From a virus, in the IMG/VR virus record IMGVR_UViG_3300038309_000252, positions 1-64,000 of that record: a DNA stretch of 64,000 nucleotides. The stretch is one strand, 5' to 3'. Below, piece by piece: positions 40,924-62,179 of this stretch; positions within the stretch are counted from its first letter, which is position 1; every line of letters starts with the position of its first letter. Below the pieces are notes generated by a model. It searched no databases, was not told the origin of the DNA, and worked only from the letters and a program-made list of their open reading frames with translations. The position numbers and the translations under genes are program-made.

Positions 40924-42405
40924 ATGAAATCCAATGCTGCTCTATGGGAAAAATATGACAAAGATCAGTTAATTTCTGATCTTAATGTTATGCCTATAGA
41001 GCAGCTAATGGAGAAATACAATTCTTCAAGAAGATGCATTCATGTAGCTTGTAGAAAGTTTGATATTCTATTAGATTCTAGACTGTTTGGTAAAAAGCTA
41101 AAACATCAAATACCGGAAAAAGATATTTTAATGGAGCAATTAAAACAAGGCAAACAACACGCTGCTCAAGTATTCAATTGTTCTATTCCTGTTGTTAATT
41201 CTTGGATTAAGAAGCATAACATCACTATAGAATCATATTATGGAGTGAAAGCTGTTTTAGACAAGAATCTAGTACTTGATTTAATTTCTCAAGGATTATC
41301 AGATCGAGATATAGCAAAACGTTTTGGGGTTTCTTTTGCTACAATTGAAAGATTTGCTTCTAGACATAATGTAACAGTCCACAAGAAAGGTATTTCCTGG
41401 AAAGACGTTGATCAGAAATTAGAAACTAATTTCAATTGGATTTGTGAACAGAATCAGACTAGAACCATTTTAGACATTAGTACAGAATTGGGTATTTCTG
41501 CATCCAAGACACTTAAGTTTCTAGATTCCAAAGGGTTTGATATTGTTAGTCATTCAATAAATAAATCAAAAGGTGAATTGGAAGTCAAGGATTACATTTC
41601 TTCTTTGGGGGTTTCTTGTCAATCTGTTAAAAGAAAGTTCAATGACAAAGTATTTGAACTGGACATCTTTGTGCAAGACAAAATGTTTGCCATTGAATAC
41701 TGCGGGGAATATTGGCATTCTGACGAACAGAAACCCAAAATGTATCATTATCAGAAATATCAATGGTGTAAAGATCAAGGGATTACATTATTTACTATAT
41801 TTGAGCATCAATGGAAACACAAGAAAGAAATCATTAAATCCATGATCAAAGCTAGATTAGGTCTAGCAAAGAAGATTCATGCCAGACAGACAATTGTCAA
41901 AGACATTTCTGCTGATGAAGCAAAGACATTCTATGAAGAAAATCATTTGCAAGGTTATACACCTAGTACAATTCACAAAGGATTGTTTTTCGAAAATGAA
42001 CTAGTTGCAGCTATGTCAATCGTCAAGTCTAGATTCAGAAAAGATGAAGAATGGGAAATGTCCAGACTGGCATTCAAACTACACCATGTGATTGTTGGTG
42101 GTGCATCTAAGCTGCTGAAACAATTTAAAGATTACTCAATGATATCTTATGCTGATCTTTGTATTGGTGACGGGCAAGTCTATGAAAAGATGGGATTTAT
42201 CAGATTAAAGAACACTACACCTAACTATTTCTACTTTCATAAATATTCTGGAATTATTCATTCACGAATGACATGCCAGAAAAAGAATCTAAATAATATT
42301 TTATCATCATTTAATCCGATTTTGACAGAATATGAAAATATGTCAAATAATGGTTATTTACGAGTTTGGACTTGTGGCAATGCAATTTTTCAAAGAAAAT
42401 TATAA
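40924..42405 (+). CDS. Free-standing EDxHD (VSR-like) homing endonuclease, between genes 18 and 19
   Basis: 493 aa. N-terminal 210 residues hold several HTH-like units (QLMEKYNSSRRCIHVACRKF; GLSDRDIAKRFGVSFATIERFA; TILDISTELGISASKTLKFL) likely to bind DNA. Then a Vsr/EDxHD nuclease fold: GELEVKDYISSLG, FELDIFVQDKMFAIEYCGEYWHSDE (about 242-267). A C-terminal domain HARQTIVKDISADEAKTFYEENHLQGY ... VWTCGNAIFQRKL is shared with the endonuclease at 48549. The gene interrupts the normally adjacent sheath and tube genes, with no sheath sequence lost, typical of a mobile free-standing homing gene cutting the intronless neighbour in rival phages. Confidence 0.88.
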   Translation: MKSNAALWEKYDKDQLISDLNVMPIEQLMEKYNSSRRCIHVACRKFDILLDSRLFGKKLKHQIPEKDILMEQLKQGKQHAAQVFNCSIPVVNSWIKKHNITIESYYGVKAVLDKNLVLDLISQGLSDRDIAKRFGVSFATIERFASRHNVTVHKKGISWKDVDQKLETNFNWICEQNQTRTILDISTELGISASKTLKFLDSKGFDIVSHSINKSKGELEVKDYISSLGVSCQSVKRKFNDKVFELDIFVQDKMFAIEYCGEYWHSDEQKPKMYHYQKYQWCKDQGITLFTIFEHQWKHKKEIIKSMIKARLGLAKKIHARQTIVKDISADEAKTFYEENHLQGYTPSTIHKGLFFENELVAAMSIVKSRFRKDEEWEMSRLAFKLHHVIVGGASKLLKQFKDYSMISYADLCIGDGQVYEKMGFIRLKNTTPNYFYFHKYSGIIHSRMTCQKKNLNNILSSFNPILTEYENMSNNGYLRVWTCGNAIFQRKL

Positions 42406-47120: not shown

Positions 47121-48467
47121 ATGAACTATAATCGTAAAATGCTCTTAGAAAAGTGGGAACCTGTATTAAGTCACAGGTCTTGCGATCCAATTAAAGATAA
47201 TTATCGTCGAGAAGTAACTGCTATTCTTCTTGAGAACCAAGAACGTGAAATTCGTAAGTCTGCCATGGAAATGGCACATCCTCTTAATTCTTCAGTAACT
47301 TTAAATGAAGATGCTCCTGCTAACTCTGGTGGACTTGGTGTCGCTATGGGTGGTGCTGGTTCTGCTACCGGAACAGTAGCTGGTTATGATCCTGTTCTAA
47401 TTAGTCTTGTACGTCGCGCAATGCCACAACTAATTGCCTATGATGTGTGTGGTGTACAACCTATGACACAACCAACTGGTTTAATCTTCGCTATGAAGTC
47501 TCGCTATACTAGTCAAAATGGGGTAGAAGCTCTTTATAATGAAGCTAACACAGGTTTCAGTGGTACTGGTACCCATTCAGGTTCTAACTGGACTTCTGGC
47601 ACAGATACAACTGGCACTGGAATGACCACAGAAGCTGGAGAACGTCTAGGTCAAGGTGGTGTTGGTGACGGCAATTTCAACCAAATGGCATTCAGCATTG
47701 AAAAGACCTCTGTAGTTGCCAAGACTCGTGCTTTGAAAGCTGAATATAGTTTGGAACTAGCACAAGACCTTAAGGCAGTTCATGGTCTAGATGCAGAAGG
47801 TGAACTATCCAATATTCTATCTTCTGAAATCCTAGCTGAGATCAACCGTGAAGTTATTCGTACCGTATATATGACCGCTCGTCCTGGTGCTCAAGTAGGA
47901 ACTGCAGCTTCTGGAACGTTTGACCTAGATATCGATTCAAATGGACGCTGGTCTGTTGAAAAGTTTAAGGGTCTTCTATTCCAACTAGAGCGTGAAGCTA
48001 ACGCAATTGCCCAAATGACACGTCGTGGACGAGGAAACTTTGTAATTTGTTCATCTGACGTGGCATCAGCATTTGCCATGGCAGGTGTACTTGATTACGC
48101 TCCTGCATTGTCAACTGGTCTAAATGTAGATGAAGCATCAACTACATTTGCTGGTGTTCTGAATGGTAAGTTCAAAGTATATGTTGATCCATATGCTGCT
48201 AACCAATCATCTGTACAATACTTTGTTGTAGGTTATAAAGGAACCTCAGCATTTGACGCTGGTATCTTCTATTGCCCATATGTTCCATTACAAATGGTAC
48301 GTGCTGTTGATCCAAATAGTTTTCAACCCAAAATTGGTTTCAAAACAAGGTATGGTATCGTAGCAAACCCATTCGTAGATTTAGATGATGGTTCTGCAAA
48401 CACTGGTGACATTGTTGCAGATAAGAACTACTACTACCGTAAAGTAAGAGTAACTAACCTAATCTAA
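47121..48467 (+). CDS. 23: Major capsid protein gp23
   Basis: 448 aa (T4 gp23 is 521). Family core: DPVLISLVRRAMPQLIAYDVCGVQPMTQPTGLIFAMKSRY (about 90-130), then ALYNEANTGFSG, a MAFSIEKTSVVAKTRALKAEYSLELAQDLKAVHGLDAEGELSN segment and VYVDPYA. A plausible gp21 cleavage site follows Glu-63 (TLNE/DAPANSG). Codon choice (more C-ending, CGT/CGC Arg codons) differs from flanking A/T-rich codon use, fitting very high expression. A strong terminator follows. Confidence 0.97.
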   Translation: MNYNRKMLLEKWEPVLSHRSCDPIKDNYRREVTAILLENQEREIRKSAMEMAHPLNSSVTLNEDAPANSGGLGVAMGGAGSATGTVAGYDPVLISLVRRAMPQLIAYDVCGVQPMTQPTGLIFAMKSRYTSQNGVEALYNEANTGFSGTGTHSGSNWTSGTDTTGTGMTTEAGERLGQGGVGDGNFNQMAFSIEKTSVVAKTRALKAEYSLELAQDLKAVHGLDAEGELSNILSSEILAEINREVIRTVYMTARPGAQVGTAASGTFDLDIDSNGRWSVEKFKGLLFQLEREANAIAQMTRRGRGNFVICSSDVASAFAMAGVLDYAPALSTGLNVDEASTTFAGVLNGKFKVYVDPYAANQSSVQYFVVGYKGTSAFDAGIFYCPYVPLQMVRAVDPNSFQPKIGFKTRYGIVANPFVDLDDGSANTGDIVADKNYYYRKVRVTNLI

Positions 48468-48496
48468 TTGACATCCTCTAAAAAATAGATTATAAT

Positions 48497-48531
48497 AAGG
48501 ACTCCAGGAATAAATCTTGGAGTCCTTTTTT
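48497..48531 (+). terminator. Rho-independent terminator after gene 23
   Basis: Perfect 10-bp stem aaggactcca / tggagtcctt around an 11-base loop, followed by an uninterrupted T run to 48531. It lies 30 bases after the gp23 stop and ends the head operon. The homing endonuclease gene starts just downstream, so it must depend on read-through or its own promoter. Confidence 0.92.
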
Positions 48532-48548
48532 GTTGGTTAATTGGCATC

Positions 48549-50003
48549 ATGAACAAAGAACAATTTCTAGACTGTTTGAAATTAAATGGCAAACTAGTAA
48601 CCAAAAGATGTACAGAAGCATACTTGGTTAAACATGATTTAATTCAATATTTGGATCAATTGATTGATCCTTCTTTTGGAACGATTAGCGACAGAATCAG
48701 ATTCTTGATTCATGGTGGTGGTTATTGTCTTGTTTGCGGTATCAGAACAAATGTTCATGTATCCGGCAAAGGGTTTGCCAAGTATTGTAATGCGCATTTC
48801 CATGAACCCAAAAAAGGAAAAAAAGCACACAATAGCATCGATGTCGACAAGACACAATTGTGGCAACTGTATGTGATCGAAAAGAAATCCTTGTCCGAAA
48901 TTGCCAAGATTTTGGGCAATGTCAGTAACGTTACATTAAGAAAGAAATTGATTGAACATGATATCCCACAAAGAACTCATTCAGAAAATCAAAGACTTCA
49001 TGTTAATCCAAAACCTAAAGGATTTGATTTCCCTAAAGAATGGTGGATTGAACAATACAAGACCAAAACATCAGAAACCATAGCAAACGAGCTAGGTTGT
49101 TCACCAGCATTAGTATTGCAAAGACTTTATGCTTTTGACATTCCAAGAATTACTTTTCTAAAAGACTCTATACCAGAACTTGTTATTCATGAAATCTTGA
49201 AGAAGAATAACGTTCCATTTCAAACTAGAGTTCGTGGTTTGCTGTCAAACAATCAAGAATTGGATGTTTTTATTCCGGATTGTAATCTAGCAATCGAAGT
49301 GAACGGTTTGTATTGGCATTCTGAACTAGCAGGCAAAGGACCAAAGTATCATTTGAACAAAACTATTCAATGTGATGCCAAAGGGATTCAATTGCTACAA
49401 TTCTGGGATTCCGAAATCAGGGATCATCCAGAAATCATTGAATCGATGATTTTGTCTAAGCTTAAGAAAACCAAAAGAATCTTTGCCCGAAAGACTGTTT
49501 TGACAGAAATCGATTACCAAACAGGAAAAACATTCTTTGAGCGTACGCATCTTCAAGGCAATGCAGCTGCACCATTGTTTCTTGGATTATTTTATGATAA
49601 TCAATTAGTTTGTTGTGCTTCATTTGCAAAACCTAGGTTTTCCAAGAATCATGATTGGGAATTGATCAGGTTTGCTTCAGAATTAAATGTTACTGTTATT
49701 GGAGGTTTATCAAAAATTATAAATAAAGTAACAGGAACAATTGTTTCTTATGCCAATCGCAGATGGTCTAAGGGCAATTGTTATTCTGCTTTAAGCATGA
49801 ATCTGATTGGTCAAACCAAACCAGGGTATTGGTATACTAAAGATTTCAAGCATCTTGAAAATCGCATGAAGTTTCAAAAACACCTCTTAGAAAAAACAAG
49901 TGTACATTTTGAACCAACTCTTTCTGAATCAGAAATCATGCAGAAATCAGGGTATTCAAAGGTTTGGGATTGCGGTAATCTAATTTTTCAAAAATTAAAA
50001 TAA
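48549..50003 (+). CDS. Free-standing EDxHD (VSR-like) homing endonuclease downstream of gene 23
   Basis: 484 aa, paralogue of the endonuclease at 40924. N-terminal Zn-binding cluster YCLVCGIRTNVHVSGKG..KYCNAH (about 59-83), then HTH-like units (KSLSEIAKILGNVSNVTLRKKL; SETIANELGCSPALVLQRL). Nuclease core: ELVIHEILKKNNVPF, QELDVFIPDCNLAIEVNGLYWHSE (about 236-259). The C-terminal half HLQGNAAAPLFLGLFYDNQLV ... VWDCGNLIFQKLK matches the other copy. It sits immediately after the major capsid gene and terminator. Such enzymes usually target the neighbouring conserved gene in other phages; here that would be gene 23 (inference). Confidence 0.88.
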   Translation: MNKEQFLDCLKLNGKLVTKRCTEAYLVKHDLIQYLDQLIDPSFGTISDRIRFLIHGGGYCLVCGIRTNVHVSGKGFAKYCNAHFHEPKKGKKAHNSIDVDKTQLWQLYVIEKKSLSEIAKILGNVSNVTLRKKLIEHDIPQRTHSENQRLHVNPKPKGFDFPKEWWIEQYKTKTSETIANELGCSPALVLQRLYAFDIPRITFLKDSIPELVIHEILKKNNVPFQTRVRGLLSNNQELDVFIPDCNLAIEVNGLYWHSELAGKGPKYHLNKTIQCDAKGIQLLQFWDSEIRDHPEIIESMILSKLKKTKRIFARKTVLTEIDYQTGKTFFERTHLQGNAAAPLFLGLFYDNQLVCCASFAKPRFSKNHDWELIRFASELNVTVIGGLSKIINKVTGTIVSYANRRWSKGNCYSALSMNLIGQTKPGYWYTKDFKHLENRMKFQKHLLEKTSVHFEPTLSESEIMQKSGYSKVWDCGNLIFQKLK

Positions 50004-50008
50004 GAACT

Positions 50009-51313
50009 ATGAACACATCAAATGATTTAATGGATTATTTGGACACCTTAAATGAAGGTGTATGTGAGTTTTCTGCAGATGGTACTATTTTTTTGTCAAA
50101 CCAGGCATTTCCAAAATTAATTGGTTACACTGTTAAAGAAGTAATGTCACCTATTTTTAATTGGAAACTTGTAACACATCCTGATGATGTTTTAAATGAT
50201 GAATTACAAATTAGAAAAGTACTTAAATACAATAATAATGTAAAATATGAAAAAAGATTCATTCATAGAAATGGGTCAATTGTTTATGTAACTACATCAT
50301 ACAAACAGTTAAAAATTCAACATGATCCTAATTGTATTCACATGGTAGCTGTTATTACTGACATTACTGTTCTTAAAAAGAAAGATGAACAATTGATATC
50401 CATGTACAATGAACAGCATGAAGTTTTAGAATCGATCAATGAAAGATTAAAATTATTAGCTAAAGGTGATATTAAATCACCAATTAGTAATTTTAATGGT
50501 AAATGGAAGTCTTTAAGTGATAATTTAACTAGTGTGATTAATACTTTTAGTAATCTAGCTAATACAGCTAAAGAAATGTCTTCCCATCTTAAAATTAGCT
50601 TATATGAATTAGAATCAGAAACAATAGAAATTAATAAAAAATCACAAGTACAAGCTAGCAGTACAGAAGAAATTTCTTCTTCTATGGAAGAACTTAATAC
50701 TTCATTTTCAGAGATAATAAATAAAATAGATGAAGGAAGTAAATTACTTAATTTAATATTAAAAAGAATTATAGAAGGATCTAAAGACCTAGTTAAATTA
50801 AATGACATTATGAGTACCATTAATAATTCTGGTGAATCAATCAATAATTTTGCGTCACTTATAAATGAAATATCAGTAAAGACAAATATTATTGCAATTA
50901 ATGCATTAATTGAAGCAGCACATTACGATTCACAGTCAAATGGGTTCACTGTTATTGCAAATGAAATTAGAAATTTGTCTAATTTAACAGCTTTAAATTC
51001 AAAGGAAATTAAAAAAAGTGTTGATGAAATTATAATGAATTTTGTTAATGGAATTAATTTATCAAATGAAGTACTAGAATTATTTAATAGAATAACCATA
51101 AAAACAGATACATGCAATAATATTTTTGATTTTATTAATCAAAGCATTAAGCAGCAAGAAAATAATACTGAATATGTTAATACCAGTCTTCAAGAAATAG
51201 CTAAAATAACTCAATTTAATAGTGTTCTTGTGGAAGAATTGAATAATACCATATCAATAATTAAAGAGAAATCAAATAAACTTGACGAATTGCTGCAATC
51301 TTTAAAAACTTAA
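50009..51313 (+). CDS. Soluble PAS-MCP chemoreceptor-like protein
   Basis: 434 aa with no membrane segment. Residues about 3-124 form a PAS domain (LDTLNEGVCEFSADGTIFLSNQAFPKLIGYTVKEV; HPDD; FIHRNGSIVYVTTSY; VAVITDIT). A HAMP-like stretch follows (RLKLLAKGDIKSPISNFNG, about 146-164), then a methyl-accepting signalling domain with ASSTEEISSSMEELNTSFSEI (about 216-236) and a clear hairpin tip: NEISVKTNIIAINALIEAAH and GFTVIANEIRNLS (about 286-324). In bacteria this tip binds CheA/CheW. There is no receptor-type tail for CheR. It could plug into host chemotaxis or Pil-Chp arrays (inference). Confidence 0.92.
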   Translation: MNTSNDLMDYLDTLNEGVCEFSADGTIFLSNQAFPKLIGYTVKEVMSPIFNWKLVTHPDDVLNDELQIRKVLKYNNNVKYEKRFIHRNGSIVYVTTSYKQLKIQHDPNCIHMVAVITDITVLKKKDEQLISMYNEQHEVLESINERLKLLAKGDIKSPISNFNGKWKSLSDNLTSVINTFSNLANTAKEMSSHLKISLYELESETIEINKKSQVQASSTEEISSSMEELNTSFSEIINKIDEGSKLLNLILKRIIEGSKDLVKLNDIMSTINNSGESINNFASLINEISVKTNIIAINALIEAAHYDSQSNGFTVIANEIRNLSNLTALNSKEIKKSVDEIIMNFVNGINLSNEVLELFNRITIKTDTCNNIFDFINQSIKQQENNTEYVNTSLQEIAKITQFNSVLVEELNNTISIIKEKSNKLDELLQSLKT

Positions 51314-51335
51314 TTATTAAAGGTGAAAATACATC

Positions 51336-51689
51336 ATGCACAAAGTGTTAGGAAATCATCTCATTATTGAATATTATGATTGTGATTATGCTGTTCTTAA
51401 TGATGTGAATGCTATAGAATCTATTATGCTGGAAGCAGCTAATTTAGCTAAAGCTACAATAATTGATTCAGTCTTTCACAAGTTTTCACCACAAGGTGTT
51501 TCTGGTGTTGTTGTTATTGCAGAAAGTCACCTTTCAATCCATACCTTTCCTGAACTTAATTATGCTGCTGTTGATGTTTTCACGTGTGGAAACATTGATT
51601 ACATGATTGCTCATAATTATTTAAAACTAAAATTACAATGCAACAATTGTAATGTGAAAGTAATTAAAAGAGGAATCATTAATGATTGA
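51336..51689 (+). CDS. speD: S-adenosylmethionine decarboxylase proenzyme
   Basis: 117 aa, the short bacterial class 1b form. The enzyme decarboxylates S-adenosylmethionine for polyamine (spermidine) synthesis and carries a self-made pyruvoyl group. Key motif VVIAESHLSIHTFPELNYAAVDVFTCG: cleavage between Glu and Ser (Ser at about residue 63), His-68 and Cys-83 are all present. The usual Trp in HTWPE is Phe here. Related genes occur in cyanophages. It follows the chemoreceptor after 22 bases and overlaps the first hsdS by 8 bases. Confidence 0.95.
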   Translation: MHKVLGNHLIIEYYDCDYAVLNDVNAIESIMLEAANLAKATIIDSVFHKFSPQGVSGVVVIAESHLSIHTFPELNYAAVDVFTCGNIDYMIAHNYLKLKLQCNNCNVKVIKRGIIND

Positions 51690-52326
51690 TAAAAATATGA
51701 AATTAATTCAAAACAATCAAAAACAAATTGATCTTTTAGAAGAAAAAGCTAAGCTGATCTATAATAAAGTTAACACTGGCAAATTAAATAAGTTCATCAT
51801 TGATGATGTTATTAATATTATTGATGGTCCAGGTATTGGAAGAAATCAGCATAAATCATCTGGAATTAGATTAGTAAATGTAAGGTTATTTCATAATGAT
51901 GAGTTTAATTTTAATACAAGTAATTTTATTGATCAGTTAGAAGTTGAAAAGAAATATAAAAAATATCTTCTAAAAGAAAATGATTTACTTGTAGTATCAG
52001 GAACAATGTCTTTTGGTAAACATATTACAATTAGACATATTCATTTACCATTACTTCTTAATAGCTATATCTATAATTTCACTCCAAAAGAACCATTAAA
52101 TACATGGTATCTTAAAGCATATATTACCCATGGTGGTTTCAAAGAAAAGTTAAAGTCTGTAACATCAGGTTCAATTGTTATTGGATCAAATAAAAATAAT
52201 ATTAAATTATTAAATATAGGGTTACCTAATATAAATACTTTATGTGATATAGAAGAACAGTTTTCTGAAATATACAACAAGAAAAAGTTATTATTAGATG
52301 AAAATTATTGCTTGAGAAATAATTAG
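51682..52326 (+). CDS. hsdS: Half-size type I restriction specificity subunit (HsdS-1)
   Basis: 214 aa, about half of a normal HsdS, so it holds one target recognition domain (TRD) plus one helix segment. The N-terminal helix IQNNQKQIDLLEEKAKLIYNK and the C-terminal helical DIEEQFSEIYNKKKLLLDEN are almost identical to HsdS-2, whereas the central TRD differs (VVSGTMSFGKHITIRH; SVTSGSIVIGSNKNNI). GPGIGRNQHKSSGIRLVNVRLF is a typical TRD strand region. Half-S subunits can dimerise to form a two-domain reader. Overlaps speD by 8 bases; the next gene is HsdM. Confidence 0.88.
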   Translation: MIDKNMKLIQNNQKQIDLLEEKAKLIYNKVNTGKLNKFIIDDVINIIDGPGIGRNQHKSSGIRLVNVRLFHNDEFNFNTSNFIDQLEVEKKYKKYLLKENDLLVVSGTMSFGKHITIRHIHLPLLLNSYIYNFTPKEPLNTWYLKAYITHGGFKEKLKSVTSGSIVIGSNKNNIKLLNIGLPNINTLCDIEEQFSEIYNKKKLLLDENYCLRNN

Positions 52327-52336
52327 GAAATTAATC

Positions 52337-53446
52337 ATGTGGGATGAATTTGAAAAATTTAAAAATACAGTTAAACTTGATAACAACCTTGTGTCTAATG
52401 ATTCGTTTGGTGATTTATACCAACTTTTCTTAGCTAAGAAAGGAAACAGTGTTATTGATGGAGAATACTACACTCCAAAACCCATTGTATCTATTCTTTT
52501 GAGTTTAATTAAACCAAATAAAGGTCTTCTTTTAGATCCATCATGTGGTACAGGTGGAATGTTTGTACAATGTGCGGAATTATTAAATACGTCTGATCTT
52601 ACCTTTTATGGTATTGAAAAAAATGAATTACCTGCTGAGTTAGCAAGACTTAATTTGAAAAATAATAACATGAATGGAACTATTGTTACAGCAAGTACTT
52701 ATTATAAAGATCCATTAGATATGGTTGGGAAATTTGATTTTATTCTTGCAAATCCTCCTTATAACGTTAAGGACATCGATGCAATTAAATTGCGACAAGA
52801 CACAAGACTTCCATTTGGCATGCCACCATTTTCATCAAAACAGAAAATATTAAATGGAAATTATTTGTGGTTAAGTTATTTTTATAGTTACTTGAATGAA
52901 CATGGAAAAGCAGCATGTGTAATGCCTTCCCAAACAAGTGCTGGTTCAATATTTTTTGCAGATTATAAAAAGAAATTAATTGAATCACAATCTATTGAAA
53001 TGATTATTGCTCTTAGCAGATGTTTTTTCAAATATACTTCAGTTCCATGTGAATTATGGATTATTGATAAAAACGTCAATAGACCAAATCGCGATAAAGT
53101 GTTGTTTATTAACATGGAAAATTATAAAGTAAAAAACTATTCAATAGACTATGAAAATGAAATTATGGATATAGTCAATTTCTATAGAAATAATCCGGAA
53201 TCTACAATAAACATTGCAGAAAAAGCAAAATCAATAAAAATTAGTGATTTAGGAAAAAATAATTACTGGTTAACACCAAGGTTTCATATAGATATTAAAG
53301 AGCAAGAAATTATTGGAAATGCTGATGAGAGGTTAATGGAAATTGATAATGAATTGGCATTGTTAGAAGAAGAATCAATTATTCTTAGAAAAGAATTGGA
53401 ATCCAATTTTGGAAATCATACTATTAATACTTTTGCTATTGGTTAA
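52337..53446 (+). CDS. hsdM: Type I adenine-N6 DNA methyltransferase subunit HsdM, lacking the N-terminal helical domain
   Basis: 369 aa, shorter than usual HsdM (about 500 aa). It begins directly with the catalytic region: GDLYQLFLAKKGNSVIDGEYYTPKPIVSILLSLI, motif I LLLDPSCGTGGMFVQCAELL (about 74-93) and motif IV FILANPPYN (about 136-144). The N-terminal helical domain of family members is absent and the C-terminus ends in a coiled coil (IDNELALLEEESIILRKELESN) that could contact the S helices. No HsdR nuclease gene lies nearby. It probably methylates phage or host DNA, protecting against host restriction or altering expression (inference). Confidence 0.92.
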   Translation: MWDEFEKFKNTVKLDNNLVSNDSFGDLYQLFLAKKGNSVIDGEYYTPKPIVSILLSLIKPNKGLLLDPSCGTGGMFVQCAELLNTSDLTFYGIEKNELPAELARLNLKNNNMNGTIVTASTYYKDPLDMVGKFDFILANPPYNVKDIDAIKLRQDTRLPFGMPPFSSKQKILNGNYLWLSYFYSYLNEHGKAACVMPSQTSAGSIFFADYKKKLIESQSIEMIIALSRCFFKYTSVPCELWIIDKNVNRPNRDKVLFINMENYKVKNYSIDYENEIMDIVNFYRNNPESTINIAEKAKSIKISDLGKNNYWLTPRFHIDIKEQEIIGNADERLMEIDNELALLEEESIILRKELESNFGNHTINTFAIG

Positions 53447-53448
53447 CT

Positions 53449-54102
53449 ATGAAAAAAATAACTCATGATTTCATTCAAAATAATCAAAAACAAATTGATC
53501 TTTTAGAAGAAAAAGCTAAATTAATCTATAATAAATCATTATCAAACCAAACAGAAAAATTAAATTTTGATGATGTTATTGATATCATTGAAGGACCAGG
53601 TATTGGAAGAAATCAGCATAGACAAAATGGGATTAGAATAAGTAATATTAGACTATTCAACAATGATGAATTTAATTTTAAAACAGCTAACTTTATTGAC
53701 GCATTAGAAGTTGAAAATAAATATAAAAAATATCTTCTAAAAGAAAATGATATTCTAGTAGTTGCTGCAACTACAGTATTAGGAAAATCTGTATTAGTTA
53801 GAAGTAATCATTTACCTTTGTTATTAAATGTACATCTTTATAGATTAACACCAAAAGAACCATTAAATACATGGTATCTTAAAGCATATATTACACATGG
53901 TGATTTTAAAAAGAAATTAAATTCAATAAGATCTGGATCAACATCAATATGGCAGACACAGATTGACAGCATAAAATCATTGAACATAAAGTTGCCAAAT
54001 CTAAACACATTGTGTGATATAGAAGAACAGTTTTCTGAAATATACAGTAAAAAAAAGGCATTATTAGATGAAAATCACAAAATCATGCATGCGGATTCAT
54101 AG
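53449..54102 (+). CDS. hsdS: Half-size type I restriction specificity subunit (HsdS-2)
   Basis: 217 aa paralogue of HsdS-1 with the same helical ends (IQNNQKQIDLLEEKAKLIYNK; CDIEEQFSEIYSKKKALLDEN) but a diverged TRD (VVAATTVLGKSVLVRSN; SIRSGSTSIWQTQIDSI). Two half-subunits of differing recognition around one HsdM would allow S1-S1, S1-S2 and S2-S2 pairs, giving up to three target sequences (inference). The 3' end (cacaaaatcatgcatgcgga onward) is repeated about 860 bp downstream at 54936, suggesting recombination at this edge. Confidence 0.88.
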   Translation: MKKITHDFIQNNQKQIDLLEEKAKLIYNKSLSNQTEKLNFDDVIDIIEGPGIGRNQHRQNGIRISNIRLFNNDEFNFKTANFIDALEVENKYKKYLLKENDILVVAATTVLGKSVLVRSNHLPLLLNVHLYRLTPKEPLNTWYLKAYITHGDFKKKLNSIRSGSTSIWQTQIDSIKSLNIKLPNLNTLCDIEEQFSEIYSKKKALLDENHKIMHADS

Positions 54103-54118
54103 AATATAACCAATTTCT
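54076..54118. repeat. 43-bp direct repeat, copy 1
   Basis: Starts cacaaaatcatgcatgcgga and is identical to 54936-54978. It spans the last codons and stop of HsdS-2. With a second shared 23-bp element it brackets the orphan gene at 54275. Confidence 0.93.
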
Positions 54119-54142
54119 CATTTTAATTCAATTATCATTTTC

Positions 54143-54150
54143 TATAAATA
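54143..54150 (+). promoter_or_regulatory. Candidate T4-type late promoter (TATAAATA)
   Basis: tataaata matches the T4 late consensus exactly and lies in the only sizeable non-coding gap before the gene at 54275. Distance to that start is about 125 bases, longer than usual, and AT-rich DNA can produce it by chance. Confidence 0.4.
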
Positions 54151-54230
54151 TAAAAATGTTAATTATGTGATAATATGATGATATGATAACATGAAAACAA
54201 AAGAATGGTTTAATCTTTTTAAGATTATCT

Positions 54231-54256
54231 ATTATACTTAAGAACTTAAGTATAAT
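54231..54256. promoter_or_regulatory. Perfect palindrome (12-bp arms) just upstream of an orphan gene
   Basis: Arms attatacttaag and cttaagtataat separated by aa, ending 18 bases before the ATG at 54275. A second small inverted repeat (taatctt / aagatta, 54211-54227) precedes it. The symmetry and position between a candidate promoter and the ribosome-binding site suggest an operator or a regulatory hairpin. Confidence 0.7.
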
Positions 54257-54274
54257 TAAAAATAGGAAACATAT

Positions 54275-54889
54275 ATGGATATTAAAAACTATACCGGTAT
54301 TGAGCTAGCAGTTCAATACATGAATGAAAGCGTTATCCATGAAGATGCTAGTGTATCAACTAAGATTGCCCCGCCAGCAAAAGGACTAGTATTACGCAAA
54401 GTTAAAGACAAGTTCGGGCAAGTGAGTGAATATTTAATTGTCGCTGCTGCGCCAAATGCCATCAAAGAAATACCTACTCAACGTAAAACATGGAGTCCAG
54501 GCAGTGATGGTGGAAAATTACAATTGACAGTAGGTTCATCAATTCCGGCATATGAATTGCAATTGATTAAGTTCCACCAGATTCCATACAAAATTGAACG
54601 TCAACGTAATTCCATGAATGAAAACAAAAATGAAAATATAGACAAAAAAATTGTACAAGAATTACAAGATGCCTTTTTGACTATTTTAGAAGATTCTGGT
54701 CGGTTAGAATCACTTGATACAGTAGCAAGCAATGCTTCTTCAATAAGTATTTCACCAAGGCAATTAGATGTGCTTCATGCTTTGAATCTTGTATTATCAT
54801 ACTTTGCAACATCTGCTGAATATGCTCTTTGGAAAAAACACTTGGAACAAATTAAAGGTGCCTTGAAAAACGTAGATTTGTCTATTTGA
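54275..54889 (+). CDS. Hypothetical protein, orphan gene behind a palindrome
   Basis: 204 aa, not recognised. Ribosome-binding site agga at about 54262. The N-terminal 110 residues form a beta-rich unit (KGLVLRKVKDKFGQVSEYLIVAAAPNAI, then KLQLTVGSSIPAYELQLIKFHQIPYKI). A hydrophilic hinge (NSMNENKNENIDKK) leads to a helical C-terminal domain (IVQELQDAFLTILEDSG; SPRQLDVLHALNLVLSYFATSAEYALWKKHLEQIKGAL). Base composition is somewhat richer in G+C than the neighbours. It carries its own control sites and lies between direct repeats, consistent with a separately acquired cassette. No function claimed. Confidence 0.6.
   Translation: MDIKNYTGIELAVQYMNESVIHEDASVSTKIAPPAKGLVLRKVKDKFGQVSEYLIVAAAPNAIKEIPTQRKTWSPGSDGGKLQLTVGSSIPAYELQLIKFHQIPYKIERQRNSMNENKNENIDKKIVQELQDAFLTILEDSGRLESLDTVASNASSISISPRQLDVLHALNLVLSYFATSAEYALWKKHLEQIKGALKNVDLSI
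54579..54601. repeat. 23-bp direct repeat, copy 1 (inside the orphan gene)
   Basis: Identical to 54908-54930 (agattccatacaaaattgaa, then cgt). It codes for FHQIPYKIERQ-type residues of the orphan protein. Confidence 0.93.
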
Positions 54890-54907
54890 TCAAGGTGGAG
54901 ATTATAA

Positions 54908-54930
54908 AGATTCCATACAAAATTGAACGT
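54908..54930. repeat. 23-bp direct repeat, copy 2
   Basis: Non-coding copy of 54579-54601, lying only 5 bases before the second 43-bp repeat, so the stretch 54908-54978 is a mosaic of fragments from 54579 and 54076. Confidence 0.93.
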
Positions 54931-54935
54931 TAATC

Positions 54936-54978
54936 CACAAAATCATGCATGCGGATTCATAGAATATAACCAATTTCT
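54936..54978. repeat. 43-bp direct repeat, copy 2
   Basis: Identical copy of the hsdS-2 3' end (54076-54118) but in non-coding context. Together with the 23-bp repeat it looks like a recombination scar. The gap 54890-55137 holds no convincing gene; a minus-strand frame of about 57 codons (ATG at 55113) covers this repeat and is considered doubtful. Confidence 0.93.
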
Positions 54979-55137
54979 TATTTTTTTAACTGCTGTGTGA
55001 ACTGGTGTTGCAATTCTTGTGTATAATGATAATTTCACTTGGTCATCTGAAGATTGATAAGAATAATCTTTTTGATTTTTATTATTAGTTGTATTCGTAA
55101 CTTTTTTCTTCATTTTTTGTCCTAGGGGTATTAATTG

Positions 55138-57063
55138 ATGAAAAATCAAAAAGGTGTGGTTCTTTTGATAATGTTAGCTTTATTATTTATAGCAACTGTA
55201 CTTGCAATTGCAATGGTTAATTCAACTATTAGTGAAATCAGAATATCAGCGCTAAGAACACAAAGAGAAGTAAGCTACTCATTAGCTGAATTAGCAGCTA
55301 ACCAAGTTATTAATAAATTAAATAATAATGATACAGATTTACCATTAACACCATTTAAATTAAATTGTAGTCAAAACAAGTGGATTGGTGGATTAGATAC
55401 ATCTGAATTTGATTGCCTTACTGAATTAATACCAATTTTAGATTATAGTGGCTATATTAAAATACATGCTGGTATGGCAGGAAATGTTAATCAATTACGT
55501 GCCAGATCAGCAGTAATTCCAATTCCTTCAGGGTTTGGTCCTATTATTGGAACACCAGGAAGATATCAATATGTATTAGTTACTAACTCTATTTTTCCAA
55601 ATACAAACAAAGAAAATATAAATTGGATTGATAGAAAAAATGGTGCTATTTGGATTAAGCAGCAAAATCAATCAAATATATTAGAAAAAGCACCATTTAA
55701 TTTAGTTAATATTCCTACACCTTTATCATTAAATAATAATCCATGGGAATCATTCAAATGGAGTGATTACAACAGATATCTTAAAAATGATGCTATCTCT
55801 GCATTAAAAGAACGTGCTGGATTAGTTGAAGGAACAGAACTTAAAGATTCTGTTAGTCAGAGATATCAAAGACTTAAAGATGCCTACCAAAATTGGGAAG
55901 ACTTAGGGAATCAATATAATGGATTAAAAACTGCTGTTTTAATAGAAGCAATTTTACTTGATGCTGGACAATCAATTATTTTATCTCCACAAATGATAGC
56001 ATCTGTTGCTGGAATAGTGAGTGGATTAGCAACATTAGGAACTACTACTTTAATAACAGCAGCAGCTACGACAGCATTATCTAATGTGGAAAATAGCATA
56101 ACAACAGCGGCATTTCAAAATATATACAATGAATTTGAATCTATTGGAAATGATTATGTCAATGCGTCAATTCGTGTAATTGAAGCAAGAAATGATATTA
56201 GACGTCCATGGATATCTCTTGATAATCTGCATGATGCAGAAAAATCTGAATCAACTTGGAAATGTGGTAAAAATGATACTGATAGAGTATTCTTGACTGA
56301 AAAAACAATGAAGGATCAACAGTTTTATGATCAAACATTTTCTAATTTAGCTATAAAAAATGTTCAATTATTATTGAATTTAATTAACCCTATTCTTATG
56401 TTATCAAAAACTGTAGGTTATGGGCAACATTTGACAAATGTGTTATCACTAATAGATGAACTTAAAAAAAATGAAAAACAAATTCTTGATATTATAAAAT
56501 CAGGAATTGATAACAAATCTACAAAAAATGAAATTGAACCTATATTTATGCTTGTCGACATAAATCCTTTGGATATAGAATCCATAAGTACAGGAGATGG
56601 ATATATTCAATCACATGTTATGTGTAATGATGATTCTGTGTTAACTTTAACATCACAAGCAAAAAGATTCAGACCATTTCAAACCAATACACCATCAAGA
56701 ATACAATATGCAACAATCATTCATTCTGGTGTTATAAAATTAGCATCTGAATCACGTTTAATTAATAATAAAGTTAATGTTGTCATTATTTCAAATGACG
56801 ATATTACTATTGCACAAGATAAATTATTACAAAAATTACAAACAGGTCAAGATGAAGGATTTATTCTTTGGACAGATAAAGATATTCAATTAAATAGACC
56901 AATTCATGGTGCAATTATTGCTGGTGGAACTTTATCTATAGATAATACATTAACAGAAATGCTAAAATATAATCCAGCATTAGATATAACTTTACTTGGG
57001 AAAGGAAAATATCCTATTGCTGGATATACTCTTGGAAGTTGGTCAGGTTTAGACTCAAACTGA
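55138..57063 (+). CDS. PilX-like type IV pilus minor pilin/assembly protein
   Basis: 641 aa from ATG 55138 (aggggt ribosome-binding site at 55124). N-terminus MKNQKGVVLLIMLALLFIAT..AIAMVNSTISEIRISALRTQREVSYSLAELAANQVINKL is the PilX N-terminal domain: a short basic class III leader, cleavage expected after Gly-6, a hydrophobic helix, then S.SE.R.S. and A..LAE.AA. Position +5 is not Glu, as is usual for PilX/GspK-type proteins. The body is beta/helical with no known domain, and near the end VNVVIISNDDITIAQDK..., HGAIIAGGTLSIDNT, ALDITLLGKG resembles pilin-associated beta repeats. Bacterial PilX acts at the pilus tip; a phage copy is unusual. Confidence 0.82.
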   Translation: MKNQKGVVLLIMLALLFIATVLAIAMVNSTISEIRISALRTQREVSYSLAELAANQVINKLNNNDTDLPLTPFKLNCSQNKWIGGLDTSEFDCLTELIPILDYSGYIKIHAGMAGNVNQLRARSAVIPIPSGFGPIIGTPGRYQYVLVTNSIFPNTNKENINWIDRKNGAIWIKQQNQSNILEKAPFNLVNIPTPLSLNNNPWESFKWSDYNRYLKNDAISALKERAGLVEGTELKDSVSQRYQRLKDAYQNWEDLGNQYNGLKTAVLIEAILLDAGQSIILSPQMIASVAGIVSGLATLGTTTLITAAATTALSNVENSITTAAFQNIYNEFESIGNDYVNASIRVIEARNDIRRPWISLDNLHDAEKSESTWKCGKNDTDRVFLTEKTMKDQQFYDQTFSNLAIKNVQLLLNLINPILMLSKTVGYGQHLTNVLSLIDELKKNEKQILDIIKSGIDNKSTKNEIEPIFMLVDINPLDIESISTGDGYIQSHVMCNDDSVLTLTSQAKRFRPFQTNTPSRIQYATIIHSGVIKLASESRLINNKVNVVIISNDDITIAQDKLLQKLQTGQDEGFILWTDKDIQLNRPIHGAIIAGGTLSIDNTLTEMLKYNPALDITLLGKGKYPIAGYTLGSWSGLDSN

Positions 57064-57070
57064 ATCTATT

Positions 57071-57480
57071 TCATGAAGCATTAGATGTCCTAATCAATAC
57101 ATTGCAATTATCCAAAAATGAAATCACACAATCTGTAATCCATGTTGGGTGTATGGCATCTTTAATGTGGTCACGCATATATTTTTCAGGATTTTTCAAA
57201 AAGTCTTGAAGTTCATTTTCATTTGGTTCAGGTATACCTGCAGCATGCAGTGCTTCATTATATGTCATTACCATGTATTCCTGCTTAATTATACTTGGAT
57301 TAGCATCGATATCACAAGTTTGAGCATATTGCTCAAATGATCAAAAAGCGCATCGGTCACTTTTCGATTTTTCCACCTGGCGCCTAATGAGGACATGGCA
57401 CCTCGAAACGCATATTTGTCTGATATACACCAGGTTAGATTACCCATTTCGTTATCCAATTTCTTGTCATAGACTGCGCA
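57071..57480 (-). pseudogene. Frameshifted member 1 of a three-copy small-protein family
   Basis: The intact 3' part (67 codons from 57274) encodes TYNEALHAAGIPEPNENELQ...PEKYMRDH...PTWITDCVISFLDNCNVLI. Reading upstream without requiring ATG gives FEQYAQTCDIDANPSIIKQEYMVMTY, and in another frame further upstream NLTWCISDKYAFRGAMSSLGARWKNRKVTDALFDHL. Joined at about 57330, these match the layout of the intact member at 57962 ([DE]A[IL][YF]..L......Y....[IVD][ED][VLA][DN]P, then A...GIP.P, then KY...P.W....V.F..N[GC]N[VI][LV]I). So one frameshift probably broke this copy. Function unknown. Confidence 0.6.
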
Positions 57481-57482
57481 GT

Positions 57483-57510
57483 CATGGACCGGATTTAAAT
57501 CCGGTCCATG
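57483..57510. promoter_or_regulatory. 28-bp perfect palindrome
   Basis: Two uninterrupted 14-base arms starting catggaccggattt. It is much richer in G+C than surrounding DNA and lies between family members 1 and 2. There is no T run on either side, so it is not a typical terminator. Possible cruciform, operator or recombination site. Confidence 0.8.
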
Positions 57511-57533
57511 GTTAAATTAATAACACATTTCCA

Positions 57534-57859
57534 TTACTCATGCAGCTGAATCAACACATTTCCATTACTCATGAACTCAATTACAAATCTAGTTGTCCAT
57601 GATGGATTACGTGCCATAAAATATTTCTCAGGATCGTCTTTCAGTGCCGCTTTGACAACTGTAGTATTTGGCGCAGGTATACCTGCCTTCTTCAAGGCAA
57701 CAGACAAATTAATTTCAGCAAACTTGCGAGCTATTTTCGATGGATCTACCTCAATAGTGGCATTGTATGATAGCGCTTGACTACTTAAATGTTGGTAAAG
57801 CGCTTCTACTGCTGCCATTCACCATTAGAGATTAGCTCTTCGAACTCATTAATAGTCAT
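57534..57859 (-). pseudogene. Probably frameshifted member 2 of the three-copy family
   Basis: The open part (94 codons from 57818) reads MAAVEALYQHLSSQALSYNATIEVDPSKIARKFAEINLSVALKKAGIPAP, then PEKYFMARNPSWTTRFVIEFMSNGNVLI. Upstream, another frame gives MTINEFEELISNGEWQQ (ATG at 57859) and meets this frame at about 57823, matching the start of the intact member (FDDFYHIINVKNHW then AAEAIYIYL). A one-base change at the cagcag run would restore the fusion. The last codons lie in a 31-bp tandem duplication (aacacatttccattactcat at 57522 and 57553). It may alternatively start at the internal ATG and still be functional. Confidence 0.55.
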
Positions 57860-57961
57860 AGTTTGCACTACATTACCCTCTTCTTTTAACCATCCAAACC
57901 ATGATTAAATTATCTCACATTCTGCATCATGTGTCAACTATGCAGAAAATGCGCATTGGAG

Positions 57962-58294
57962 TCAATGCCCAATTACAATATTGCCGTTCCTTAAAAAACC
58001 AACTGCGGTTTCATCTACCCAGGTTGGATTATGTTCGCGAAAATATGATTCCAGATTGTTTTTTTCCACATCAGTTGTTGGTGCAGGAATCCTGGCAAGA
58101 AGTAACGCTTTTTCTAAATTGATTTCAGAAAAATCGGTTTGAAACTCTTCAGGATCAAGTTCTATATTCTCATGATACATTTTTGCGTAATCACGTAAAT
58201 ATATGTAGATCGCTTCAGCAGCTTCCCTAGACCAATGATTTTTCACATTGATGATGTGATAGAAATCATCAAAGCTGTGTACAATTTCGCCCAT
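57962..58294 (-). CDS. Intact member 3 of the three-copy small-protein family, hypothetical
   Basis: 110 aa, start ATG at 58294 with gaggta 8 bases upstream. Sequence: SFDDFYHIINVKNHWSREAAEAIYIYLRDYAKMYHENIELDPEEFQTDFSEINLEKALLLARIPAP, then SYFREHNPTWVDETAVGFLRNGNIVIGH. It resembles small proteins found in phages and mobile elements with an 'EA.Y.YL......E.IELDP......SE' helical half and a terminal 'GN[VI][VL]I' strand; no named function. Two neighbours on the same strand are damaged relatives, which suggests duplication followed by decay. Convergent with the PilX-like gene on the plus strand. Confidence 0.65.
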   Translation of the reverse strand: MGEIVHSFDDFYHIINVKNHWSREAAEAIYIYLRDYAKMYHENIELDPEEFQTDFSEINLEKALLLARIPAPTTDVEKNNLESYFREHNPTWVDETAVGFLRNGNIVIGH

Positions 58295-58370
58295 CTCAAA
58301 TACCTCTTGCTTAACTTGATGTGATTATAATAGCAAAGACAAAATGAATTGTCAACTGTCCACTAATCAT

Positions 58371-59513
58371 TCACTGCTTGCTTGATTCTTGCTTGTCGAG
58401 AAGATGTTTGATGGCATCAAATATTTTTTCTGTTCTATTAATTATTTTATATTGATATTTGCTGTCTAATTTGGATAATCTAGAAAAAAGTATCGACATT
58501 TCTGTTCTTATTATGTTCTCATTATCTTGCAACCATGGATTAATTTCAGTATAACCAATCAATTCTGCATTATTTTTCATAATGTTTAATTCGTTCAATG
58601 CACCATCATTATCATAATCCATGTTATCGCCATCAGAAGCATAGAAAAAGTAACATGAATAACCTTTTGGAATATATTGTTCTTGAAGAATTGAATTGGC
58701 TAATTTGAAACAACTAGATGCTGAAGTTCCACCAGTAGCAGATACTTGAAAAAATTGTTCTTCCTCAAATTGCCATGCTTCATCTGTATGCGCCAGAAAA
58801 ACTACTTCTACATTCTTGTATGTTCTTCTGATACCTTGCAGCATCCAAAAGAAAAATGACTTTGCTAAAATACGATGGGTATCTGTCATTGAACCAGATA
58901 CATCAAGACCGAATACACAGACCGCTTTCGAATCAGGTACAGGTTTTTGCCTAATTTGCCTGAACCTCAAATCTTCATTTATGATAGCTGGTTGATCGTC
59001 AGAAATAGAGCGCCTTTTAATTGCTTCTTTCAAGGTTCTTCTACGATCCAGTCGCGACCGAGCGCCTTTCTTGTCTATGCCTTCTTTTACCCATTCCTGC
59101 TCTGAAACGTTTCCTGAAGTCTTTTTGAGGTCTGGTAATTTTAATTCTTCCCATAACCAATCTACAACTTCATCCAAAGACATTTCAATGGCAAAGGATA
59201 TTTCACCTTGACCTGAACCTCCTTGACCTTGTTGTCCTTGTTGATCAGCAGGTTTTAATTTGTCTCCTGATTTAGTATCACCTTGTCCAACACCTGTTTC
59301 TTCATCTGGATTTAATAATTTAAACCGATAATGTTGCAACATTTTGATTGGCAATTGAAACTTTTGATCCTTGGAAACTGTACCATTGACAATTTCAGGT
59401 ATCCCTAAAGTAATTTGTTCTTTGATCTTTTGATTATGCCTAGACCAGTCTTTAAGACCTCGTGAAAACAAATCAAACCATTTGATATTGGTTGTATCAA
59501 AAGAACTAATCAT
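58371..59513 (-). CDS. YeaH/YhbH-family (DUF444, UPF0229) VWA protein
   Basis: 381 aa from ATG 59513 (gagg 6 bases upstream; a TTG extension is unlikely). Family landmarks in order: a Gly/Gln-rich GGSGQGEISFAIEMSLDEVVDWLWEELKLPDLKK (about 97-130), RSRLDRRRTLKEAIKRR, RFRQIRQKPVPDSKAVCVFGLDVSGSM (metal-site DxSxS at about 205), AKSFFFWMLQGIRRTYKNVEVVFLAHTDEA, GGTSASSCFKL and YASDGDN. E. coli YeaH (427 aa) has the same chain of motifs and is linked to the PrkA-type kinase YeaG in stress and nitrogen responses. No kinase or SpoVR gene is in the window. A phage copy is unexpected; role unknown. Confidence 0.92.
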   Translation of the reverse strand: MISSFDTTNIKWFDLFSRGLKDWSRHNQKIKEQITLGIPEIVNGTVSKDQKFQLPIKMLQHYRFKLLNPDEETGVGQGDTKSGDKLKPADQQGQQGQGGSGQGEISFAIEMSLDEVVDWLWEELKLPDLKKTSGNVSEQEWVKEGIDKKGARSRLDRRRTLKEAIKRRSISDDQPAIINEDLRFRQIRQKPVPDSKAVCVFGLDVSGSMTDTHRILAKSFFFWMLQGIRRTYKNVEVVFLAHTDEAWQFEEEQFFQVSATGGTSASSCFKLANSILQEQYIPKGYSCYFFYASDGDNMDYDNDGALNELNIMKNNAELIGYTEINPWLQDNENIIRTEMSILFSRLSKLDSKYQYKIINRTEKIFDAIKHLLDKQESSKQ

Positions 59514-59527
59514 GTTTAACCTCAAAT

Positions 59528-60703
59528 TCAATTTTTTTCAAGAAAAAATAAATATTCCGTTACATCCAATATAGAATCCATAATTTTATCCTTATACCTT
59601 TTAGTTTTATATTTTTTATAATTGATATCAATTTTTTCTAATTTTCCATATTTTTTTAATGTATCGATCATATCATTTAATTCAATTAATCCACCACTAC
59701 TATATGATAAAAGGATATATGGGGAATTAGTATCATTAATTAATTGATTAATTGATTCTAATGCTGTTTTTTTATTATTATATGATGATGAATTTGATTC
59801 TACTATAGGAGCACCAACAATATTAGTTATTTTATCTGGTCTTTTATAATCAAGAAAAAGATTAAACATAAAATATTGCTTTGAATATTTTCCAACTGTA
59901 TATGGTGGATCAAAATAGGCAAAGTCTAATTCATGAATATTTTTAATAACTGAATTAATATTATCTTTATACACTACAAATTCACTTTCAAAATTACTTA
60001 ATATCGGTAGTTCCAATATTATTGGTTTTAATATTCTATTTAAAATTGAATTATTTGCATATGTTCCACCAAATTTGCCTATACCTGTATTTTTATTTTT
60101 TAAAAATGCTGTAAAATGACCAACAGTGTTAACGTTCTTTGACATCTTATTAAATAATGGACCATACAAATATTTTTGTTTATCTTCTGGAATATCATTG
60201 ATTCCTTGTCTGAATGAGTCAAGTCTTTTGGCATTATAATTAGTAAAAAACACTCGCTCATTTGGTTGAATATCATTATCGTCTTTTGGTGCATATAGTT
60301 CTTCAATAAATCCAGGTGGATAATAATTTGTTTCAAACCTGTGATTTAATAATTCAATATATTCTAACAATTCTTTTTTATCAACTTGACTATGATTACT
60401 TAAATAACACTCTGAAATAACTGAAGCATAATTTTCTTGATCACATGTATAAATTAATTCACTATGTTTTTTCAGTAATCTAGAAATTACTCCAGAACCA
60501 GAAAACCCATCTAAAGTTTTCATTCTTTTTTTATTTAATTTTTTTGATACCTTTAATATTGCCTCTTCAATCAATGGAAGAAACTTTCTTTTATTTCCAA
60601 AATAAGCTATTAATTGTGAAGTTAAATAATCTTTATTTTCCGCAGTATTTTCTGGAAATATGTAATTATAATCCACATTGTCTATATTATTTTCAATAAT
60701 CAT
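59528..60703 (-). CDS. D12-class adenine-N6 DNA methyltransferase
   Basis: 391 aa from ATG 60703 (ggag upstream on the minus strand). S-adenosylmethionine motif DGFSGSGVISRLLKKH (about 64-79) preceded by LIAYFGNKRKFLPLI, and catalytic DPPYTVGKYSKQYFM (about 266-280) define the Dam/M.EcoRV-like D12 fold. No endonuclease partner is adjacent. It is a second adenine methyltransferase besides HsdM, probably an orphan that hides phage DNA from restriction or modulates transcription. It is the first gene of a minus-strand pair with the DUF444 gene 14 bases downstream. Confidence 0.92.
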   Translation of the reverse strand: MIIENNIDNVDYNYIFPENTAENKDYLTSQLIAYFGNKRKFLPLIEEAILKVSKKLNKKRMKTLDGFSGSGVISRLLKKHSELIYTCDQENYASVISECYLSNHSQVDKKELLEYIELLNHRFETNYYPPGFIEELYAPKDDNDIQPNERVFFTNYNAKRLDSFRQGINDIPEDKQKYLYGPLFNKMSKNVNTVGHFTAFLKNKNTGIGKFGGTYANNSILNRILKPIILELPILSNFESEFVVYKDNINSVIKNIHELDFAYFDPPYTVGKYSKQYFMFNLFLDYKRPDKITNIVGAPIVESNSSSYNNKKTALESINQLINDTNSPYILLSYSSGGLIELNDMIDTLKKYGKLEKIDINYKKYKTKRYKDKIMDSILDVTEYLFFLEKN

Positions 60704-60754
60704 GATTAACTCCAATTGTTTGATTCATGTCCTTATTATTTTATTAGATTGTTT

Positions 60755-60776
60755 AAATTATACGCTCGTATAATTT
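60755..60776. terminator. AT-rich inverted repeat at the deaminase 3' end
   Basis: Arms aaattatacg and cgtataattt around ct. It overlaps the deaminase stop codon (minus strand). It could weakly terminate or stabilise that transcript. No T run follows, so the termination role is uncertain. Confidence 0.4.
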
Positions 60777-61156: not shown

Positions 61157-61183
61157 TTTTAACCCATAATTAAGGTGATTTCT

Positions 61184-61720: not shown

Positions 61721-61730
61721 GGATTAGTTT

Positions 61731-62171: not shown

Positions 62172-62179
62172 GGTCGATT

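Follow-up and report, generated by a model that had tools for sequence, protein, structure and literature searches.

According to published data, E385–R388′ of the hairpin tip of methyl-accepting chemotaxis proteins (MCPs; numbering of Escherichia coli Tsr throughout) is an inter-dimer ionic lock, in which R388 pairs with E385 of the neighboring dimer (PMC8144572). Of the alanine substitutions made in MCP514, a soluble receptor, those at the equivalents of N381 and V398 failed to restore chemotaxis, and the other three, at the equivalents of F373, E385, and R388, kept full function (PMC8466855).

MCP genes are also present in isolated jumbo phages. Escherichia phage A4 (Asteriusvirus, 355 kb) encodes an annotated methyl-accepting chemotaxis protein (USL83455.1), and the Vibrio phages Yong XC31, XC32, and MS31 (290 kb) encode MCPs annotated as hypothetical (QAX96201.1 in XC31). 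Among open-access papers, we found no literature on phage-encoded chemoreceptors.

Here, we analyze a predicted chemoreceptor gene in a window of 64,000 nucleotides (positions 1 to 64,000 of the IMG/VR virus record IMGVR_UViG_3300038309_000252). Coordinates refer to this window; those prefixed by G000 refer to the entire record.

Phage Genome and Accessory Island

The record comprises 132,600 bases, and 65 b are directly repeated at its termini, which is what a complete, circularly permuted assembly should show. It contains many T4-like genes, among them gp23 (PF07068, E=9e-141), scaffold, UvsY, and UvsW in conserved order, and its gp23 is ~59% identical to gp23 of Pelagibacter phage HTVC008M and of the Methylophilales phages Melnitz. 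The terminal repeat, the T4-like genes, and the gp23 and UvsY-like genes flanking the receptor bear out the original prediction that the locus is phage DNA, not a host contig.

In related contigs holding both gp23 and the phrog_45 tail protein gene, the gap between the two is 47–1371 nt in 65 cases out of 66 and 3213 nt in the remaining one, compared with 12.7 kb here. As the gap is far shorter in these relatives, we assign the receptor to an accessory island, organized as follows.

47121–48467 (+): major capsid protein gp23, left island border (Pfam, PHROG)
48468–61174 (no strand): 12.7-kb accessory island, from gp23 to the phrog_45/uvsY/uvsW block (gap in 66 relatives)
48499–48532 (+): terminator-like hairpin and T run after gp23 (read from sequence)
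48549–50003 (+): homing endonuclease, 5 nt before the receptor (PHROG: phrog_3339, E=5e-97)
51336–51689 (+): speD gene for S-adenosylmethionine decarboxylase, 22 nt after the receptor (Pfam, PHROG, NCBIfam)
51682–54102 (+): split Type I methylase, i.e., half HsdS, HsdM, half HsdS (Pfam, NCBIfam)
61175–63580 (+): conserved right border, i.e., phrog_45 tail protein, UvsY-like, and UvsW-like genes (relatives' gene order)

Further island genes encode several unknowns, a DUF444 protein, a D12 methyltransferase, and a deaminase-like protein. No MCP was seen in the 50 nearest gp23 records, which are mostly fragments. Occurrence of the T4 late-promoter motif TATAAATA was not above chance, and it was set aside.

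Several other features of the genome were observed. In the Type I methylase, half-length HsdS genes flank a short HsdM, and no HsdR was seen in the island. A 642-aa island protein (55135–57063, +) has an N-terminus, QKGVVLLIMLALLFIATVLAIAMVNSTISEIRIS, that by eye resembles a PilX-type prepilin; it had no family match at any cut-off tried. A second homing-endonuclease-like gene (40924–42405, +; MTES_1575 nuclease and HTH matches) separates tail genes that are direct neighbors in relatives. Elsewhere in the record, G000:114517-114996 (+; L004:10517-10996) encodes a type IV pilin-like protein of 159 aa (GFTLIELMIVVSIIGILATIAIPSY), with matches to N_methyl (E=8e-10) and to the pilin family phrog_3433. 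Pilins are also annotated in the T4-like cyanophages ACG-2014f and S-CAM7. The gene hints at a piliated host; it lies 64 kb from the receptor and does not indicate linkage. Consecutive genes for QueE-like radical SAM, QueD-like PTPS, and GTP cyclohydrolase I proteins (G000:117177-119307, +; L004:13177-15307) suggest 7-deazaguanine DNA modification. The ribonucleotide reductase small subunit (G000:97904-99649, −) has an apparent mini-intein, read by eye, and G000:104000-112000, with small ORFs of unknown kind, has a GC content of 38–39% compared with ~30% elsewhere.

Domain Architecture and Fold of the Receptor

The receptor ORF begins with an ATG at 50009 and its stop codon ends at 51313 (434 codons, + strand), exactly where the original prediction had placed it. 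Its features are listed below.

50009–51313 (+): soluble PAS/HAMP-like/MCP chemoreceptor, 434 aa (ORF, Pfam, NCBIfam, PDB match, model)
50039–50377 (+): PAS domain, residues ~11–123, PAS_3 and sensory_box (Pfam, NCBIfam)
50426–50578 (+): HAMP-like segment, residues ~140–190, LAKGDIKSPI... (Tsr HAMP alignment; HAMP-Tsr fold match)
50645–50704 (+): N-terminal adaptation sites, residues 213–232, two full methylation consensus motifs (Tsr alignment)
50777–51265 (+): MCP signaling domain, PF00015 (Pfam)
50861–50983 (+): hairpin tip, residues 285–325, with the altered turn HYDSQSN (residues 305–311) replacing RAGEQGR (tip comparison, model)
51233–51238 (+): C-terminal adaptation pair E409–E410, Tsr E492–E493 (Tsr alignment)

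Pfam matches to MCPsignal (PF00015, residues 257–419; 69.5 bits, E=4.2e-19) and PAS_3 (residues 31–115; 39.9 bits, E=5.3e-10) exceed the curated cut-offs of 34.6 and 25.6 bits, respectively, and NCBIfam yields sensory_box and sub-threshold partial matches to several chemoreceptor models. Pfam HAMP has no match in the receptor; nevertheless, residues 145–190 align with the HAMP domain of Tsr and the structural model superposes on a HAMP-Tsr fusion, so the label "HAMP-like" used in the original prediction fits, as does the overall PAS, HAMP-like, MCP architecture. The highest 19-residue hydropathy mean is 1.17 and there is no transmembrane segment, in agreement with the claim that the protein is soluble; together with the N-terminal PAS sensor, this places it among class IV (cytoplasmic) chemoreceptors.

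In a phmmer search against PDB, the top match is Tsr (E=5e-23, well outside chance), aligned without a gap over receptor residues 197–429, and hence the receptor belongs to the 36H length class. Consistent with an MCP hairpin, the AlphaFold2 model has two long helices (residues 164–305 and 310–430, pLDDT mostly >90) joined by a turn at 306–309, and its best fold match is the HAMP-Tsr fusion 3zx6 (TMt 0.89, rmsd 2.3). Since the input alignment consisted of MCPs from viral contigs, the model lends support but does not count as an independent line of evidence, and since this alignment held no PAS homologues, the PAS part is not resolved. A single-sequence AlphaFold model (pLDDT 37) was set aside. 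The PAS domain has no match in PDB at E≤0.001, and therefore we suggest no ligand for it. An Aer-type aerotaxis receptor, with an FAD-binding PAS domain and a membrane anchor, was rejected given the lack of a membrane segment and of a PAS match in PDB at this threshold.

Adaptation Sites and Hairpin Tip

Complete methylation consensus motifs are found at residues 216–225 and 223–232, and together with the pair E409–E410 they form methylatable E/Q sites predicted from sequence. Residues Q215, E221, E228, and E410 align to Q297, E304, Q311, and E493 of Tsr, respectively, which are adaptation sites of that receptor. Glycines 257 and 348, corresponding to the glycine-hinge region of Tsr, are kept. 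The phage encodes no CheW-domain protein, and thus any signaling would need host proteins.

The tip was compared with 141 different tips from the retrieved loci. It retains N376, I377, A379, N381, A382, E385, A386, and A387 before the turn, and G395, F396, V398, A400, E402, R404, and L406 after it, where invariance at T375, N381, E385, and their neighbors is not independent, being forced by the alignment pattern, while positions 388–394 are free of it. Changes before the turn are F373V, Q374K, L378I, L380I, and A383L. In the turn itself, the near-invariant R388, G390, E391, G393, and R394 are all replaced, the sequence HYDSQSN resulting from R388H (His in one of the 141 tips), A389Y, G390D (none of the 141), E391S, G393S (none), and R394N; at the four most conserved turn positions, the receptor's residues are shared by at most one tip out of 141. 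Thus, the original prediction of a clearly conserved tip holds for the two tip helices, and both tip strings that it quoted are present, but it fails for the turn.

Over 225 alignment columns, ranked from the most variable to the most conserved, the consensus residue is retained in 10/80, 23/88, 14/28, and 17/29 columns. The contrast between the most conserved and the most variable columns argues that receptor function is constrained, and the protein is thus divergent yet under constraint, conservation breaking down specifically at the turn. As only one sequence of this receptor is known, selection is not measurable.

Cellular Relatives and Other Phage Chemoreceptors

Among 563 sampled alpha- and gammaproteobacterial genomes, the nearest cellular match is a soluble PAS/HAMP-like/MCP protein of a gammaproteobacterium (L106, G070:C44; E=9e-44, 26% identity). 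No close donor was found in these genomes, nothing exceeding ~32% identity and the best full-length match having 26%. Similarly, a scan of an 84,980-species genome set yielded seven weak matches, none close, and three specific scans of IMG/VR yielded no close viral homologue; these specific scans work by exact matching of short peptides, so that relatives may escape them. In a tree, the receptor branch is very long and saturated, and hence we claim neither a donor nor a placement.

A general tip-pattern scan of IMG/VR produced 233 confirmed MCP stretches. Many of the best 80 look like bacterial or prophage-flank DNA; at least three among these 80 lie within clear phage contigs, each MCP matching its own contig in GC content. 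L175 (72 kb) encodes a 4HB-HAMP-MCP protein, in a record with a Gp23-like match, clamp loader, and DNA ligase; L216 (89 kb), a Cache_3-MCP protein, along with thymidylate synthase, phrog_2488 helicase, UvsX, UvsW-like helicase, and clamp loader; and L245 (224 kb), a NIT-MCP-CZB protein, along with DnaB helicase, PAAR, and other phage families. The L245 contig also encodes a membrane protein of 725 aa in which GGDEF- and EAL-like motifs were seen by eye (L251:11852-14029), and this 224-kb NIT-receptor phage may target c-di-GMP signaling too. In L211, an MCP follows terminase and portal genes and host-like genes lie downstream, so that its status is ambiguous.

Several candidates from deposited "phage" records were discarded. 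The AGRM/AFYI Salmonella records, the ECO95 and S.Kent fragments, and Acinetobacter MD-2021a are bacterial or bacterial-looking contigs or fragments; the Listeria LM, Pseudomonas Y1/Y11/Y13, and faecal "Bacteriophage sp." records are bacterial-looking and were left out of the count of phage MCPs. The Microcystis MaAM05 MCP adjoins thiL, ispD, and ruvA, and the P1 match lies among mobile-element genes near a beta-lactamase. The family phrog_8572, which is as long as E. coli Tap and probably stems from contaminated records, was not used as evidence.

Hence, the original view that chemoreceptors are not normal phage genes needs correction, as at least two kinds of isolated jumbo phages and three large uncultivated phages carry MCPs. 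Phage MCPs are thus rare but do exist, and all others found are of the membrane type with normal or near-normal tips; the present receptor is the only soluble, turn-altered one found among the best 80 of the 233 IMG/VR stretches and deposited phages. The chemoreceptors of large phages have sensors of several unrelated types (4HB, Cache_3, NIT, dCache, multi-helix membrane, and PAS), suggesting that such genes were taken up independently more than once and bring an advantage open to selection.

Proposed Function

We propose, with about even confidence, that this class IV-type 36H phage receptor becomes part of the CheA/CheW arrays of the host and biases the output of these arrays. It would be made during infection; its PAS domain would sense an internal cue, e.g., redox state, a metabolite, or a cofactor, and the signal would pass via the HAMP-like segment to the MCP hairpin, which would join the host CheA/CheW arrays. 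There it would probably sit intermingled with host receptors, and host CheR/CheB might methylate it. The altered CheA output would then bias how the infected cell swims or moves by type IV pili. Contact with CheA/CheW is suggested by the retained helix residues; expression, array entry, the direction of the effect, and the phage benefit we infer.

Array entry is favored by the domains, the gap-free 36H register, the two methylation motifs, E409–E410, and the hinge glycines being kept, by retention of N381 and V398, which MCP514 could not lose (PMC8466855), and by the existence of a soluble cellular relative with the same domain order. Use of host arrays also fits the normal-tipped receptors acquired independently by other phages. 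It is disfavored by R388H, G390D, E391S, G393S, and R394N, since the R388 partner of E385′ is lost with them (PMC8144572). However, the tip change alone does not rule out signaling, as N381 and V398 are kept and the R388 equivalent is dispensable in MCP514. The adaptation sites and the PAS domain favor regulated signaling, and the turn favors a modified contact.

The main rival is a decoy, or dominant negative, whose helix faces would bind CheW, CheA, or host receptor dimers while the altered turn would block proper trimers-of-dimers, so that partners would be sequestered and host taxis uncoupled during infection. It would account for changes being concentrated in the turn with N381, E385, V398, E402, and R404 kept, and for the whole tip being kept by other phage receptors, but a pure decoy has no need of a PAS sensor and adaptation sites, and tolerance of alanine at the R388 and F373 equivalents of MCP514 (PMC8466855) means that the turn change need not break function; we consider the decoy unlikely. 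Given the altered turn, a modified or decoy role deserves testing as much as normal signaling does. Unlikely as well, in our estimate, is a receptor whose otherwise near-invariant turn was remodeled by a virulent phage, and which would enter CheA/CheW arrays and lock or disrupt them depending on the cell state sensed by PAS; if true, this would be a viral override of bacterial behavior.

The very long, saturated branch, the altered turn, and the lack of a chemotaxis partner in the phage could also point to a repurposed intracellular sensor, a PAS–coiled-coil protein acting off CheA/CheW on another partner, e.g., a phage or host regulator; survival of the adaptation sites, hinge glycines, and helix contact residues is not expected from it, and we give it a low probability. 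It is improbable that the gene is a passenger drifting without function on an island bordered by a homing endonuclease: the island is missing from relatives and the one known copy is divergent, but the 434-codon frame is intact, conserved columns are retained in a graded manner, and the spacing to the neighbors is tight (5 and 22 nt). Finally, MCPs are typical bacterial genes, and many MCP matches in virus collections are bacterial DNA, which would fit host DNA or an assembly chimera. This, however, is contradicted by the 65-b terminal repeat and the wealth of T4-like genes of the 132.6-kb record, the phage homing endonuclease and phage-type speD at the two sides of the receptor, its low, phage-like GC content, and the absence of a close bacterial MCP in the scans; given the terminal repeat, phage flanks, and island mapping, we reject this explanation as barely conceivable.

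The presence of such a gene in a complete T4-like phage genome suggests that some viruses exploit, or obstruct, the system by which the bacteria they infect navigate. With this single gene, standard chemotaxis assays in E. coli can directly address whether phages steer the behavior of infected bacteria, and the altered turn offers a natural experiment on the dispensability of individual tip residues in a receptor.

Comparison With Known Systems

The present receptor is a soluble, turn-altered form among the rare phage MCPs, with the function proposed above. The gammaproteobacterial L106 receptor shares its domain order and solubility and is collinear over residues 9–431, but it is chromosomal, has an almost normal tip (AARAGEHGRSF), and is only 26% identical. 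The cytoplasmic domain of E. coli Tsr, a 36H MCP, shares the gap-free register over residues 197–429, the adaptation sites, the hinge glycines, and the helix contacts, whereas the phage receptor lacks the membrane part, has PAS instead of the periplasmic domain, and has an altered turn, at ~25% identity. MCP514 of Agrobacterium is likewise a cytoplasmic MCP, which binds CheW and localizes through its hairpin; unlike the phage gene, it lies in a che operon and has the R388 equivalent, this comparison being made through the published description (PMC8466855).

Among phages, the MCPs of the uncultivated L175, L216, and L245 similarly reside in AT-rich phage contigs with phage replication genes, but have 4HB-HAMP, Cache_3, and NIT-CZB architectures and normal tips. 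Escherichia phage A4, an isolated T4-like jumbo phage of the virulent type, likewise has an MCP gene, whose product differs in its hydrophobic multi-helix membrane N-terminus and near-canonical tip (AAKAGEHGRGF). Vibrio phage vB_VmeM-Yong XC31 is also an isolated jumbo phage with an MCP gene, whose product, however, is a dCache-HAMP-MCP membrane receptor with a canonical tip.
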